A stretch of 64,000 nucleotides of DNA from Candidatus Woesearchaeota archaeon (GTDB lineage: Archaea > Nanobdellota > Nanobdellia > Woesearchaeales > ARS49), in assembly GCA_030750765.1 (NCBI GenBank), contig JASMHM010000001.1:158541-222540 (forward strand), in the 5' to 3' direction. The notes beneath the pieces were generated by a model, which was not told the origin of the DNA, did no database searches, and saw only the letters and a list, made by a program, of their open reading frames with translations. A program made the translations under genes and the position numbers. Each line of letters starts with the position of its first letter. Position 1 is the first letter of the stretch. Shown here piece by piece: positions 5,751 through 39,933 of this stretch.

Positions 5751-6236
5751 TCAGGCAAGCGTTGCAGAATAAACCCGTTTCTCTCCGCTCGGCGTCTCAA
5801 TAGTCTTTTCGTACTTGTAGCCGCTCTTTTCTAGCATTTTCTGACTTGCGATGTTCGCTGGCTTCACTCTTCCGTAGATTTTCTTTAGCTTGTACGTTTT
5901 GAAGGCGTACTCGAGCAATAATTTGTGCGCTTGCGTTCCTACGCCTTTTCCTCTGAATTCTGGTGCTACCAAAGATCCTGTCGTGCCTTCTTTGCCTTGA
6001 ACGATATGGTGGATGGCGATGAATCCAGCAAACACTCCCCCCATCTCGATGGCAAACGTTTCTTTGGTTCGCTTTTCTTTGGGAACATCATACGCATCCA
6101 AGGCTTCCTGGATTTCTTCTTTTGCTTCCTCCAACGTTGTAGGATGGCTTGAGAAGAACTTTGCTGCGTCCTCATCATGCGCTTTGAGATACACTTCAGC
6201 GTCCGCCATCGTAAGATGTCTTAGGATGATTTCCAT
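5751..6236 (-). CDS. GNAT-family N-acetyltransferase (RimJ/RimL-like)
   Basis: 161 residues. The acetyl-CoA-binding motif A is APEFRGKGVGTQAHKLLLEY, with the R-G-x-G-x-G/A loop, followed by NIASQKMLEKSGYKYE, the typical GNAT motif B ending. The layout (MEIILRHLTMADAEVYL start) is that of the RimJ/RimL-like acetyltransferases, which modify protein N-termini or small amines. The ATG at 6236 matches the family start; an ATG eight codons upstream is less likely. The acceptor substrate cannot be read from sequence. Confidence 0.85.
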   Translation of the reverse strand: MEIILRHLTMADAEVYLKAHDEDAAKFFSSHPTTLEEAKEEIQEALDAYDVPKEKRTKETFAIEMGGVFAGFIAIHHIVQGKEGTTGSLVAPEFRGKGVGTQAHKLLLEYAFKTYKLKKIYGRVKPANIASQKMLEKSGYKYEKTIETPSGEKRVYSATLA

Positions 6237-16853: not shown

Positions 16854-16875
16854 GAACCGCGCCAAGAGGGTGCGT

Positions 16876-17727
16876 ATGGGACGAGGCATTTCTAAAGTTG
16901 GCGTGGTAGGAGGCATTATCGCATTACTCATCTTGGTAGGCGGACTGATGGCGTACTCAGGCCTCACGAAGAGCAGCACCAGCGACGCCCTACTGCTTTC
17001 TGTAGACGGAGACGTTTCTATAGTTACCGGGAGCACGACCATCACCGCAGTACAAGGGATGCGCCTGAAGGTCAACGAAGTGGTGAAAACAGGCCAAGGT
17101 CGCGCCATCATCGTACTAAGAGAAAGTATGATAGTAACACTCGACAGCGACAGCGAACTACGCATTTCTTCCATATCGCCAGAGAACGTGGAAGTACAAC
17201 ACACGCAAGGGAGAACATGGAACAAGTTCACCGGCCTTACCGGAATGAAAAACTACAAAGCGACAACACCTAACACCGTAGCCGCGGTAAGGGGAACGAC
17301 ATGGGAACAGCAAGTCTCCCCCGACCAAATCATCGTCCTAGAAGGCAAGGTCTCTTTCCAGCATCAAGAAGAACGTGTTGAAGTGGGCAGTCTGGAAAAA
17401 TACACATTAAAAGACAGCACACTGGTTCAATCGGACCCCACACCAGAAGATCTTGAAAGGCTCAAGAAAGAGTTAGAAGTGCATGTCACCACGCTAAAGA
17501 AAATGAGATGGAACGAGTTGCGTAAGAACAGCGTTGCCTTCAACGTGTTCAAACAACGCTTTGGCGTGACTGAAGACGAAATAAAAGCTTCCTTTAACGA
17601 ACACGACGAGGCAGAAAGTTTTGATCCTGAACAAATAAAGAAAGACGCACCCATCCAATCAGAAATTCTAGATAAAATCTTAGCCATCACCGAACAAATC
17701 AGAGAGGCTCGTGCCCAACTAGAATGA
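16876..17727 (+). CDS. FecR-domain membrane protein 1
   Basis: 283 residues. An N-terminal membrane helix (VGVVGGIIALLILVGGLMAY) is followed by a FecR-type beta domain: DVSIVTGSTTITAVQGMRLK, the D.D.ELRI repeat and the family hallmark TPNTVAAVRGTTWE. The C-terminal 100 residues are helical and charged, perhaps coiled coil. FecR domains in bacteria are extracytoplasmic sensor or binding modules. The ATG at 16876 is chosen over GTG at 16870 from the TATA spacing. It overlaps FecR-2 by ATGA. Confidence 0.85.
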   Translation: MGRGISKVGVVGGIIALLILVGGLMAYSGLTKSSTSDALLLSVDGDVSIVTGSTTITAVQGMRLKVNEVVKTGQGRAIIVLRESMIVTLDSDSELRISSISPENVEVQHTQGRTWNKFTGLTGMKNYKATTPNTVAAVRGTTWEQQVSPDQIIVLEGKVSFQHQEERVEVGSLEKYTLKDSTLVQSDPTPEDLERLKKELEVHVTTLKKMRWNELRKNSVAFNVFKQRFGVTEDEIKASFNEHDEAESFDPEQIKKDAPIQSEILDKILAITEQIREARAQLE

Positions 17728-18740
17728 AAAAACTTCTCCTCCTCATGCTAGTCGCTTGTGCCCCGACCATAACGCAAGATGCGATCTTACTAGATTTTTC
17801 AGGCGAGGTGTTGGCAGATGGCTCACCACCCATCACCAACAACACCGTCCGTAACATCCAAACCTTTAATGGTACTGCAAAGGTAGCCATACCCGGCCGA
17901 GCACTTGTCCACGTTGATCCTTACACCAACGTGTCCTTACTAGAACTGCATAACGTTCACTGGTACCAAGACAGAGGTACGACCTGGCACAAGTATTTAG
18001 CAACAGTAGGTGCGACTACGTACCAAGTAGAAAACCCTTACTCGGTTGCAGCAGTCAGAGGAACCGAGTTTGAGGTAGTCGTCGTCAATCAGTCCGCCAC
18101 CATTCTCGTAGGGGAGGGCAACGTGAGTATACGAACCAACGAATCCCAGACAGTCATAGGAAAACATGAGAAAGTAATCACCTCCAAAAAACAGAGACGG
18201 GTTAAACGCAAACTGACCAGCGTGGAAGAACAGCAGCACCTCGTTTCCAAAAGAAAAGACACTCAGCAATACGTGCAAACAGTAAGAAGACTACAAGACA
18301 AAATTCACAAAAGAAAGAAAGCCCCAGAACGCAGATCACCAGAGCCAACAAAGAAAGAACGCACAAAACCGCAAAGAAAAAATCAAACCCTTAAGAGCGA
18401 GACAAAAAGCAACACACAACCACCAAAATTTCGAAACAGCACAACGGTTCGCACGGAGGCCTCACGCAACGTGAGCAAAGAGAAAATAATATCTACAACA
18501 CAACCAAGACAAGGAAATGCAAAAAAGCGTCCTGTCACAAAAGAGCAACGGCCCAAAAACAAAACACCCTTCCTCTCAAGAACAGCACCCCATGCCACAA
18601 CACCTTTACAACAAGAAACTGACAAAGTACGACCTACGCAAACGTTCCCCACTCAAAGGCATAAGAATGACACGACCGTCAAGGCAGCACTCGACAAAAA
18701 AGTGCGCACAGAGTTTGACAATGGGAGCGTACGCAGGTAG
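17724..18740 (+). CDS. FecR-domain lipoprotein 2 with basic tail
   Basis: 338 residues: lipobox LLMLVAC, a FecR-type domain (residues about 25-160) ending in the hallmark NPYSVAAVRGTEFEV, then a 170-residue low-complexity, Lys/Arg/Gln/Thr-rich tail with Asn-x-Ser/Thr sequons. The tail is probably unstructured and could contact cell-surface polymers or nucleic acid. The stop is directly followed by the ATG of the cyclase. The two FecR proteins share the architecture but little sequence outside the hallmark. Confidence 0.82.
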   Translation: MKKLLLLMLVACAPTITQDAILLDFSGEVLADGSPPITNNTVRNIQTFNGTAKVAIPGRALVHVDPYTNVSLLELHNVHWYQDRGTTWHKYLATVGATTYQVENPYSVAAVRGTEFEVVVVNQSATILVGEGNVSIRTNESQTVIGKHEKVITSKKQRRVKRKLTSVEEQQHLVSKRKDTQQYVQTVRRLQDKIHKRKKAPERRSPEPTKKERTKPQRKNQTLKSETKSNTQPPKFRNSTTVRTEASRNVSKEKIISTTQPRQGNAKKRPVTKEQRPKNKTPFLSRTAPHATTPLQQETDKVRPTQTFPTQRHKNDTTVKAALDKKVRTEFDNGSVRR

Positions 18741-20597
18741 ATGCAGCACTCGCCGTTAGTGCCCATAGTCGGGTGCGCGTTGGTATGCTTTCTCTTCCTG
18801 GTGGGCGCGTTCTCAAACATCGAAGTAAAAATAACAGACAACCTGCATGGAGGTATACAACCTCAGAACATACTCATCGTAGCCATTGATGACCCCAGTC
18901 TCCAAGAGCTTGGAAGGTGGCCGTGGCCTCGCAACCTGACCGCCAAACTCATCACCCAGCTGGAAGAAGCACGCGTGACAGGCGTAGACATAGGGTTCTA
19001 CGAACCTTCAAACCAAGATCATGAGTTGGCAGAAGCAATCTCCAACGCACATGTCGTTTTGGCGCAAGAGCATAGTCAAGACCAGTTGCTCCAAGCAACA
19101 CCCCTCATAGGAGCCAACGCAAACCACGGCTACGTGAACGTCATCACTGACCGCGATAAGGTTACGAGAGCCATAAAGACAGACCTGGGAATCCCCTTCT
19201 CGGTAGAGATACTGCGGCAAGCAGGCTATCAGGCGTATCCTCCAGAACGTATGCTCATCAATTTCGTAGGGCCTCCACAAAGCTTTGAGTACGTTTCTGC
19301 AAAAGACCTCCTCAGTAAAAAGATCAACGTTAAAGATCGCATAGTCCTTGTCGGCGCTACCAGCCCAGGACTCCACGATGACTATCTCGTTCCCACCTCA
19401 GAAGGAAAAGCCATGCCCGGTGTTGAGGTGCACGCAAACGCAATCCAAACCATGTTGCAAGCGAACTACCTCTACCCATTATCTCGCCCTAGCACACTAG
19501 CAGGAATCATCGTACTGACAGGAATAGCGACTGCGATAACATGGTACTTTTCCTACTGGGTTGCAGCAGTGCTTGTGGCCCTCCTCATTCTCATACTTCC
19601 CTGGCTGACTATACTAACTTTTGAGCAGGGAACAGTGCTTCCCGTTTTGTATTTTGAGCTGAGCGTCATCGTCAGCACAGTTATGAATACTGCACACTTG
19701 TACTTTGTGGAAGGAAAAAAGCGTCGCGAGATACAACAAGCGTTTGGAAAATACGTATCCAAAGATTTAGTAAACGACTTAGTCAGCAGTCCAGAAAAGT
19801 TAAAGCTAGGAGGGGAGCGAAAAGAGATTACTGTGTTTTTCTCAGACATTCGCGGATTTACCAGCGTATCCGAAGCGCTCAGTCCAGAAGATCTGGTGCA
19901 CCTACTCAACGAGTACTTAGACAGCATGACTTCCATCGTGTTGAAAAACAAAGGCTGCGTGGACAAGTTCATGGGGGACGCCATCATGGCCTTCTGGAAC
20001 GCCCCTGTTGATGAAGCACAACATGCAGAGCTCGCATGCGAGACCAGCCTGGAAATGATGGAAGAACTTGCGAGATTGCAAAAGAAGTGGACAAAAGAAG
20101 GTGTGCCAGCCCTAGATATAGGTATTGGTTTGAACACTGGCGATGCTATCGTTGGCAACATGGGAAGCCATGAGCGCTTCGACTACACCGCCATGGGGGA
20201 CACCATCAACCTAGGATCGCGATTAGAAGGTTTGAACAAACAATACGGAACGCACATCATCATCTCACAGCACACAAACAAGCACGTCAAGCACAAGTAC
20301 CTCACCAGGCCGCTAGATTTTGTAAAGGTCAAAGGAAAGAAGGAAGCGATTGAAATCTTTGAGTTAATAGCAGAAAAAGCAAAATGCAAGAACAAACAAC
20401 CCTTTGTGAAGGAGTTTGAGAAAGCTCTTGACTATTACAAAGCACAACAATGGGACGCAGCCATTAAAGGCTTCCAAAAAGCCCTACACCTGCAGAAGGA
20501 TACCACTGCTGAAACAATGATAGAACGTTGCAAGGTCTTCAAAAAGAATCCTCCAGGAAAGGACTGGGATGGCAGCTGGGAGATGAAAAGCAAATGA
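18741..20597 (+). CDS. CHASE2-domain class III adenylate/guanylate cyclase
   Basis: 618 residues. N-terminal helix; extracytoplasmic CHASE2 domain (ILIVAIDDPSLQELGRWPWP, then PGVEVHANAIQTML); about three membrane helices (residues about 255-325); class III cyclase domain; short helical TPR-like tail. The catalytic set is present: metal Asp in VFFSDIRGFTS and in KFMGDAIMAFW, the GIGLNTGDAIVGNMGS strand, and TAMGDTINLGSRLEG with the Asp that favours adenine and the Asn/Arg that stabilise the transition state. It should make cAMP in the cytoplasm in response to an external cue. No cNMP-binding effector is seen in the window. Confidence 0.93.
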   Translation: MQHSPLVPIVGCALVCFLFLVGAFSNIEVKITDNLHGGIQPQNILIVAIDDPSLQELGRWPWPRNLTAKLITQLEEARVTGVDIGFYEPSNQDHELAEAISNAHVVLAQEHSQDQLLQATPLIGANANHGYVNVITDRDKVTRAIKTDLGIPFSVEILRQAGYQAYPPERMLINFVGPPQSFEYVSAKDLLSKKINVKDRIVLVGATSPGLHDDYLVPTSEGKAMPGVEVHANAIQTMLQANYLYPLSRPSTLAGIIVLTGIATAITWYFSYWVAAVLVALLILILPWLTILTFEQGTVLPVLYFELSVIVSTVMNTAHLYFVEGKKRREIQQAFGKYVSKDLVNDLVSSPEKLKLGGERKEITVFFSDIRGFTSVSEALSPEDLVHLLNEYLDSMTSIVLKNKGCVDKFMGDAIMAFWNAPVDEAQHAELACETSLEMMEELARLQKKWTKEGVPALDIGIGLNTGDAIVGNMGSHERFDYTAMGDTINLGSRLEGLNKQYGTHIIISQHTNKHVKHKYLTRPLDFVKVKGKKEAIEIFELIAEKAKCKNKQPFVKEFEKALDYYKAQQWDAAIKGFQKALHLQKDTTAETMIERCKVFKKNPPGKDWDGSWEMKSK

Positions 20598-35673: not shown

Positions 35674-36006
35674 ATGACTCGCATGTACATCCAAAACGAG
35701 GGCGTCTTCCAATTGGGACTGAAAAAGATGTCTTTGTACGTGATTATGCTACTAGTGACCGCATTCTTGGGCTACTGGTTCGTGGGCTGTCAAGAGCCAA
35801 CCTGTCAAGCAGGATGGTTTGTTGGCTTGGTACAGTTCTTGGCATGGCCGTTCTTCATGTTTAGCAGACTTCCAGAGATGCACTTGGTCATAGGCATCAT
35901 TCTTTTCATACCTGCAGTCATCCTACAGCTAATTTGGTTGTATGGTGTGGCTTGCCTGTTGTTATTGCCCTGGAGGGGAAAGAGATATGTCTACAAAAGA
36001 AAGTAA
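35674..36006 (+). CDS. Small membrane protein
   Basis: 110 residues with about three hydrophobic segments (SLYVIMLLVTAFLGYWFV, WFVGLVQFLAWPFFMF, MHLVIGIILFIPAVILQLIW). No catalytic residues recognisable. It overlaps the next Cys-rich gene by 20 nt. Confidence 0.6.
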   Translation: MTRMYIQNEGVFQLGLKKMSLYVIMLLVTAFLGYWFVGCQEPTCQAGWFVGLVQFLAWPFFMFSRLPEMHLVIGIILFIPAVILQLIWLYGVACLLLLPWRGKRYVYKRK

Positions 36007-36154
36007 ACCTGCAAAGCCAAGTAGTGTTGGCGACTTGTACCAGTGCCCTAAGTGTGGAGGTATGGAGTTTTCCAAGCCGGGCAAGTGTCAATGCGGAAAA
36101 GTGCTGCAAAAACTGTGCGATTGTGGCTTTGTCAAGAGTAAGTGCACTTGCTAG
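35987..36154 (+). CDS. Cys-rich zinc-binding miniprotein
   Basis: 55 residues from the ATG at 35987: a Lys/Ser/Pro-rich start, then four Cys pairs of type C-x-x-C or C-x-C (CPKCGG, CQCG, CDCG, CTC). Such spacing suits one or two zinc sites. It starts within the preceding membrane-protein gene, which suggests translation coupling. Confidence 0.6.
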   Translation: MSTKESKPAKPSSVGDLYQCPKCGGMEFSKPGKCQCGKVLQKLCDCGFVKSKCTC

Positions 36155-38192: not shown

Positions 38193-38211
38193 TCCTTTAA
38201 TGCAAGGTGGC

Positions 38212-38472
38212 TCAGTACGGACCAGATCCCTGGTTAGATCCCGAAGCTAACAACGTTTGGTTTTCTGTACACGCATCGCAGGAACACGTGTGATCTCGTC
38301 TAAGCAAGGATATCGATTTTGTGTCAACTATTTGAGTGAGATTAGCAATGCAAGCCATGCACTCGCACGTATGACTGTTTCTCAAGTCTGCTAACCCCTT
38401 TTCCTCCAGAAAAAGCTCAGGGATCGCAATACATGCACTGCACTTGCAGGTATGTTCAGAGTTTAGCTCCAC
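38212..38472 (-). CDS. Triple HTCxCxAC-repeat metal-binding-like protein
   Basis: Three copies of His-Thr-Cys-x-Cys-x-Ala-Cys (HTCKCSAC, HTCECMAC, HTCSCDAC) occur at a strict 27-residue period, with matching hydrophobic residues between. Each copy supplies one His and three Cys, enough for one metal. I know no named family with this repeat. A GTG at 38472 is preferred because AAGGAGG, a full Shine-Dalgarno, lies five bases before it; the longer frame begins at TTG 38490. No membrane segment or signal. Confidence 0.6.
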   Translation of the reverse strand: MELNSEHTCKCSACIAIPELFLEEKGLADLRNSHTCECMACIANLTQIVDTKSISLLRRDHTCSCDACTENQTLLASGSNQGSGPY

Positions 38473-38519
38473 ATCAACCTCCTTAGACAAGAGAAGATTG
38501 GAATCTTTAAGAAGTTTTC

Positions 38520-39857
38520 CTAGCCCATCCTAGAACGGATGACCTTTCGTAATTTTTCCATCTCTGGATAACGGTACCAGAACAGAATCTTTTGGTCTTG
38601 TACAGTGCTTGTTGTGGGTTTGTCTTTGAGTACGAATCCTGTGAAGGACTCTGCGATGTCCTCCTCGACGCTGCTGGAGGCGTATTCTGTGAGGAATCGG
38701 TCGTCATATTTTCTCCCAAAGGCCTCGGATAAGGAGTAGTACTCGTCGTCAGATTCTACCTCTTGAAGCTTGACCCATTCGGGGTAGATGTCTTTCCAGA
38801 ATGCTTTGAAGTAAAGGTTTAGATAGGATTTTTCTGTGGCACAGCCCTCATCGGTGCCATACCGGGGGTTGCACACTTGCTGCTGCAAGAGGAAGTCTGC
38901 TTCTACCAACTGCTCGTTGGCAACCAATTGTTTGTCATTCAGCGTGTATAAGCGTGCGCTTTCGTGGATCATGGTGTAGGTAAGATCTTTGTTGTCTAGG
39001 CTACCTGTCAGGTATGCATCCTTGATGTCGATAAGTAGTTCGAACTTGTTAGTCCCTTCAATGATGCCTACTGCAGCTAGTGTTTCATCCTCGCCATCAG
39101 TCACCACTTGGAATGTGGAGAGCATGGGTGTTGTTTCTCTAGGAATGGTTTGTATGTATTTTGCCCAGATGGCTTGATGTTTAGCATCATCGTTTTGCAA
39201 GGCTTGAAAATCAGCACTTACAGATGGCTTGTCTTGTAATGTAATTTTTTCCCCGTTGATCGTGTACACGGCAAGTATGGTGATCTCTGCTTCTTCTCTG
39301 TCTTCCTCATCAAACATGCCTGGATAGTCTTCGCCATCCTCAAAATAGTCGTCTCCGATGTCTTCTGCTAAAGCGTCTATACGTTCGTCGTATGCTGCAC
39401 ATTCTTCGTCAGTATCGCAGTCCACATAGCACACCTTTTCTATAGGATCATACTGCTCAAAGTCGTAGCAGTCCTCTGGTAACATGTCAAAGTCTTCATA
39501 GTCGGCGTAGTATTCATCATAGTCGCATTCTTCGTCTATGCAATCAAAGTAGCAATAGTCGTCCACCTCGTCATATGTTTCTTCAGGAAGACAACCGTTT
39601 TCGTCCAAGCCTTGATAGTCGTAATCGTCAAAGAACTCTGCCTCGAACTCCTCATCTACGAACACTACCGGAATGGTCTCCACAGGAATGGTAGAGGTTG
39701 CTGGAATGGTAGGAGTCTTGTTAGTAGCTTGTAAGGGTTGGTCTGGAACAGGCGTTGGAACGAGTACTGCCTCAGGATTAGCTGGTTGGACCTCAAACAC
39801 TACCTGCGTTTGCGCAGTGCACGCAACCAACAAAAGTAGCAGTACCAACCATCTCAT
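38520..39857 (-). CDS. Acidic Cys-rich lipoprotein with degenerate zincin motif
   Basis: 445 residues: lipobox LLLLLVAC, Pro/Thr-rich linker, then a very acidic Asp/Glu/Tyr-rich region with two similar Cys clusters (YCYFDCIDEEC and VCYVDCDTDEEC) and a C-terminal peptidase-like domain. That domain has TMIHESARLYTL, where HExxH has become HESAR, and SSVEEDIAESFTGFVL, which resembles the downstream Glu helix of related zinc peptidases. The second His is missing, so it may be inactive. The acidic region may bind cations. The true start is the ATG at 39857. Confidence 0.7.
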   Translation of the reverse strand: MRWLVLLLLLVACTAQTQVVFEVQPANPEAVLVPTPVPDQPLQATNKTPTIPATSTIPVETIPVVFVDEEFEAEFFDDYDYQGLDENGCLPEETYDEVDDYCYFDCIDEECDYDEYYADYEDFDMLPEDCYDFEQYDPIEKVCYVDCDTDEECAAYDERIDALAEDIGDDYFEDGEDYPGMFDEEDREEAEITILAVYTINGEKITLQDKPSVSADFQALQNDDAKHQAIWAKYIQTIPRETTPMLSTFQVVTDGEDETLAAVGIIEGTNKFELLIDIKDAYLTGSLDNKDLTYTMIHESARLYTLNDKQLVANEQLVEADFLLQQQVCNPRYGTDEGCATEKSYLNLYFKAFWKDIYPEWVKLQEVESDDEYYSLSEAFGRKYDDRFLTEYASSSVEEDIAESFTGFVLKDKPTTSTVQDQKILFWYRYPEMEKLRKVIRSRMG

Positions 39858-39903
39858 TAGCCCGCATACACTTAACTTGTATAAAAAGGTGATGTGCGCA
39901 AGT

Positions 39904-39911
39904 CTTATAAA
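39904..39911 (+). promoter_or_regulatory. TATA box of trpS
   Basis: CTTATAAA is centred 26 nt before the trpS ATG, consistent with a leaderless or nearly leaderless mRNA. Confidence 0.5.
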
Positions 39912-39933
39912 CCTCCAACCCCCTCTCGAACGT

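Follow-up and report, generated by a model that had tools for sequence, protein, structure and literature searches.

Genomic Locus and Repeat Structure of the Cys-His Gene

The window analyzed here is a stretch of 64,000 nucleotides from the genome of a Candidatus Woesearchaeota archaeon (1.14 Mb, 98.7% complete). Matches above curated cut-offs to EF-1 alpha, ribosomal protein S6e, and LonB in the window mark the genome as archaeal, probably of a DPANN-like lineage. An accessory interval between the genes for tRNA-Ser and trpS contains two minus-strand genes: a small gene whose product has nine Cys and three His residues, hereafter the Cys-His gene, and a lipoprotein-like gene (38520-39857); the features are collected in table 1. 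The lipoprotein-like protein is acidic and Cys-rich, has no Pfam match, and includes a HESAR stretch that by eye resembles a worn HExxH protease motif. Elsewhere in the window, a 70-residue ORF (35942-36154, plus strand) encodes a small Cys-rich protein with CPKC, CQC, CDC, and CTC pairs and no Pfam match at E<=1. Genes for a FecR-domain protein, a second lipoprotein-like protein, and a CHASE2-adenylate/guanylate cyclase stand in a row at 16870-20597 (plus strand), a bacterial-looking set that seems unusual in an archaeal genome.

Table 1. Coordinates of the Cys-His gene, its repeat units, and the surrounding interval in the window.
Feature	Position	Strand	Basis or remark
86-aa ORF, likely GTG start, three HTCxCxAC units	38212..38472	-	translation
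Unit 1 motif HTCKCSAC	38431..38454	-	
Unit 2 motif HTCECMAC	38350..38373	-	
Unit 3 motif HTCSCDAC	38269..38292	-	
AAGGAGG, ribosome-binding-site-like, 5 nt ahead of GTG	38478..38484	-	sequence; putative function
Unit 1 predicted helix, residues 12-22	38407..38439	-	AlphaFold2, low confidence
Unit 2 predicted helix, residues 39-51	38320..38358	-	AlphaFold2, low confidence
Unit 3 predicted helix, residues 66-81	38230..38277	-	AlphaFold2, low confidence
Accessory interval between tRNA-Ser and trpS	38193..39933	.	1741 nt vs 35 nt in sister species G001

The frame of the Cys-His gene is open from a TTG at 38490, which would give 92 residues (38212-38490, minus strand), and the GTG at 38472 is the likelier start given the AAGGAGG just before it. 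Translation of the longer frame places the HTCxCxAC motifs at residues 13, 40, and 67, a period of exactly 27 residues that takes in all nine Cys and all three His, and each unit supplies one His and three Cys as potential ligands at i, i+2, i+4, and i+7. Both occurrences of HxCxCxxC-57 nt-HxCxCxxC in the window fall inside this ORF, and 100 dinucleotide shuffles yielded none; at least two HxCxCxxC motifs appeared in 0 of 200,000 shuffles of the protein, and the sole other HxCxCxxC in the six frames of the window (33033, plus strand) is unrelated. Translation, pattern scan, and shuffles thus bear out the first-pass annotation, which had described three copies at a strict 27-residue period. Its further remark that the spacers are similar among the copies does not hold up: with the motif columns removed, only 2 to 4 of 17 spacer residues are identical within the protein, and the spacers show more conservation across the two species discussed below. 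From unit to unit, the motif codons show synonymous changes (ACC/ACG, TGC/TGT, and GCA/GCT/GCG), indicating that the repeat is maintained at the protein level. Inspection by eye shows no signal peptide in this protein or in its bacterial relative, so we expect both to be cytosolic, with free thiols in a reducing environment.

A Second Member in a Bacterial Genome

A scan of genome contigs for HTCxCxxC-57 nt-HxCxCxxC returned three stretches, two of which have internal stops. The third is a true relative: an unannotated ORF of 87 residues (locus L009, 6309-6572, minus strand) on contig JACZWC010000079.1 of the Bacteroidota MAG B1T1B10, titled Bacteroidetes bacterium isolate B1T1B10. Its product consists of three H[TS]CxCxAC units with a period of 27 and retains 9/9 Cys, 3/3 His, and all three Ala in register, so that the set of one His and three Cys seen in each archaeal copy is conserved. 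An ungapped alignment of 82 residues shows 45% identity between the two proteins (BLASTP, E 5e-26 for a single comparison). The spacer columns alone are identical at 20 of 56 positions, and none of 100,000 shuffles did equally well, which argues that the spacers are constrained. Like-numbered units are the best or nearly the best cross-species pairs (BLOSUM62 sums of 29, 24, and 42, against off-diagonal sums of 1 to 28), so the three-unit form probably predates the split of the two members. Over 83 aligned codons the differences by codon position number 36, 26, and 53, and 20 of the 37 identical residues are encoded by different codons, a pattern expected of protein-level selection.

The bacterial protein differs from the archaeal one in its longer N-terminus and in the absence of a GSNQGSGPY-like tail, and its gene has a bacterial host and different neighbors; no neighbor genes are common to the two loci. 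The contig carries MoxR/DUF58/BatA-like genes, recognized by eye, together with hsdM, which Pfam confirms, and on this basis looks truly bacterial. Downstream of the homolog, a 132-residue ORF (5776-6174, minus strand) has CC, CxxC, and CPYC pairs and matches no family significantly.

Searches for Further Members

The Cys-His ORF is a member of a rare new family with two known members. A scan of 371 genomes from the archaeal phylum recovered the exact pattern only from the window's own genome. A two-row profile of the window and L009 proteins (A1) was run against overlapping genome sets, and each real match was already known: one of four matches at E<=0.01 in 352 genomes of the order, one of two in 395 genomes of the bacterial phylum, and the single matches in 395 genomes of the bacterial class and in 60 relatives. 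The three further matches in the order (E 5.6e-4 to 8.4e-3) appear to lie out of frame with other frames or on their antisense strand, and a Bacteroidota match in G588 (E 8.3e-4) runs antisense to a long ORF. Among 37 relatives, five matched at E<=1, and only the match in the window's own genome is real. A second match in that genome (L002, E 0.002) has two internal stops and overlaps other long frames; two loci (L003 and L004) were dropped after inspection of their ORF lists, and two others (L005 and L006) gave weak matches only (E 0.30 and 0.33).

No member was found in the plasmid and phage sets, nor in viral contigs by profile search or by pattern scans that included periods of 26 and 28. 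The viral stretches with a period of 27 (3 and 2) and those with periods of 26 and 28 (8 and 9) were all read individually. None of the former is real; of the 17 latter, 9 have stops inside the match and 8 are short or low-complexity frames. The same contigs gave 57 stretches for CxCxAC pairs and 11 for a single DHTCxCxAC; these were judged by searching 10,179 ORFs (40 residues or longer, 125 loci) by profile, and only copies of the two members scored below E 1e-3. A related-locus search from the single protein found nothing among 67 pattern stretches and missed L009 itself, so true members can escape it; repeated with the alignment on viral contigs, it found nothing among 36 stretches. Nothing relevant on HTCxCxAC or HxCxCxxC/HTCxC turned up in the open-licence literature.

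Probable Lateral Transfer

The sister species G001 shares the HtrA neighbor (91% identical) and the tRNA-Ser gene, after which trpS follows at a distance of 35 nt. An insertion in the window and a deletion in G001 both fit this arrangement. We found no tRNA-Ser gene in the trpS loci of genomes outside the genus, no direct repeats flanking the accessory interval, and no relative of the Cys-His gene in the only other genome of the genus or in the order. The G001 tRNA-Ser copy beside HtrA (L038, G001:C48) has about 26 extra nucleotides at the anticodon, intron-like and missing from the window copy; ARAGORN labels it tRNA-Ala(cgc) with an intron.

The codon score of the Cys-His gene is -0.097, compared with a native expectation of 0.101 +/- 0.058; of 5000 versions sampled from native codon usage, 3 reached a score this low. 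Codon usage is no more than suggestive evidence of transfer, given that two of the seven other small ORFs of the window have scores almost this low (-0.092 and -0.055). At -0.154 per codon, the raw coding score is lower than that of any of the 17 reference genes and does not exceed those of other frames. Together, the absence of the segment from the sister species and the non-native codon usage indicate that the gene was probably laterally transferred, and it looks to have been exchanged between a small-genome archaeon and a bacterium. The lipoprotein-like gene has a native-like codon score (0.057). Of 315 genomes of the order, two others hold partial relatives of it (G320 and G903, neither of which is among the order genomes with an A1 match), and G001 has a short match that adjoins trpS.

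Predicted Structure and Proposed Function

Two AlphaFold2 models are of low confidence (mean pLDDT 48.8 and 48.0). In both, a helix begins exactly five residues after every motif His, and a short second helix follows units 1 and 2. The fixed distance between His and helix suggests that the putative metal loops cap the helices. Metal binding is likely, and three metal sites in a row are plausible; shared or cluster sites are possible as well, because four ligands within eight residues are tight for a mononuclear HCCC site.

We posit, with about even confidence, that the Cys-His gene is genuine and encodes a rare, probably laterally moved, cytosolic miniprotein of three 27-residue units that would be stabilized by metal and act as a partner-binding scaffold. 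The one His and three Cys of each unit would coordinate a metal (probably zinc), with the HTCxCxAC loop capping the start of the helix; through the three sites, the short helices would be held together in a small scaffold, which may bind a partner protein or nucleic acid after the manner of TAZ zinc-finger scaffolds. Against this proposal, both models are poor, the ligands of each unit are closely packed, and the family counts just two members, whose gene neighborhoods differ; the non-native codons and low coding score fit a foreign origin but give expression no support. A more specific reading, to which we give rather little credence, is a new metal-binding fold in which the 27-residue units stack and the helix-capping HTCxCxAC loops align along one edge to form a linear or trinuclear Cys9His3 center, in a family that reached both an archaeon and a bacterium by lateral transfer.

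The main rival, which we judge possible though doubtful, is a metallothionein-like buffer or detoxification protein, in which a thiolate cluster built from the nine Cys and three His would hold or sequester Zn, Cd, or Cu. The gene is small, accessory, and apparently laterally moved, and the tight CxCxxC spacing of its ligands would suit such a role; however, Cys makes up just 9 of the 86 residues, the spacers are long, regular, and conserved, and no metal-resistance neighbors were seen at the window or L009 locus. It is improbable that the HxCxCxxC units bind iron-sulfur clusters or Cu(I) and serve in electron transfer or metal delivery. A set of three Cys and one His could accommodate a cluster or copper, and the L009 protein has a very weak match to the HgcB ferredoxin (14.9 bits, with the cut-off at 99; E 0.017), but no Fe-S family scores above its cut-off, and the CxCxxC spacing is not known as a classic cluster motif.

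We think it quite improbable that the gene is a laterally acquired remnant, unexpressed in its host and merely keeping its frame. Its non-native codons, the lack of relatives in the other genome of the genus and in the order, and the absence of the segment from the sister species would agree with that account, but the frame is open, every motif residue is intact, and AAGGAGG lies at a good distance, whereas one would expect a gene in decay to have lost some of its 12 ligands. A chance repeat in a spurious ORF, an idea that could appeal to the small size and weak coding score, is excluded for practical purposes by the L009 relative and the shuffles.

The main interest of the family lies in an unnamed, putative metal-site repeat common to an archaeon and a bacterium. 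The candidate motif, HTCxCxAC at a period of 27, would join the catalogue of small metal proteins, and a protein of three similar units and 86 residues is simple enough for direct structural and metal work. Rarity limits its importance unless metagenomes contain many more members.

Comparison with Known Families

No fitting family for the Cys-His protein was found in Pfam, NCBIfam, PHROGs, PADLOC, or the PDB, and the profile search, which the first-pass annotation had named as its refuting test, did not map the protein to a known zinc-finger family, so the view of that annotation that no named domain has the HTCxCxAC signature stands. Among PDB chains, the window protein had no match at E<=10, and the best matches of A1 and of a repeat profile (A2) had E-values of 0.51 and 1.2. 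The CXCXC repeat (PF03128) shares the CxC step with the window protein and reaches its 15-bit cut-off with 15 bits (E 0.033), but over residues 37-45 only; this match covers RNSHTCECM with two Cys, and the third Cys follows at CxxC and not CxC. The L009 protein does not match PF03128 at E<=1, and it scores 12 bits against a cut-off of 27 for the RING zinc finger zf-C3HC4_3.

Bacterial metallothioneins (SmtA/BmtA) resemble the window protein in their small size and in the use of His besides Cys. SmtA contains a CxCxxC stretch, and no tandem 27-residue repeat is known in this group. No metallothionein family is among the Pfam or NCBIfam matches of either member. Bacterial metallothioneins are small zinc-binding proteins that carry His besides Cys and have a zinc-finger-like fold (PMC10612145).

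The TAZ profile is absent from the Pfam families matched by the window protein (E<=10) and by the L009 protein (E<=1). The TAZ domain of CBP/p300 is eukaryotic, and its ligand spacing is wider than that of the HTCxCxAC unit. The ligand counts of the window protein agree with three zinc sites of one His and three Cys each, as in the small helical bundle of TAZ. In TAZ2 of CBP, three HCCC zinc sites hold a four-helix bundle that binds partners (PMC12022988). We regard this likeness as an analogy of working and not as kinship, and it is in that sense that the three putative metal sites of the Cys-His protein might organize a partner-binding scaffold.
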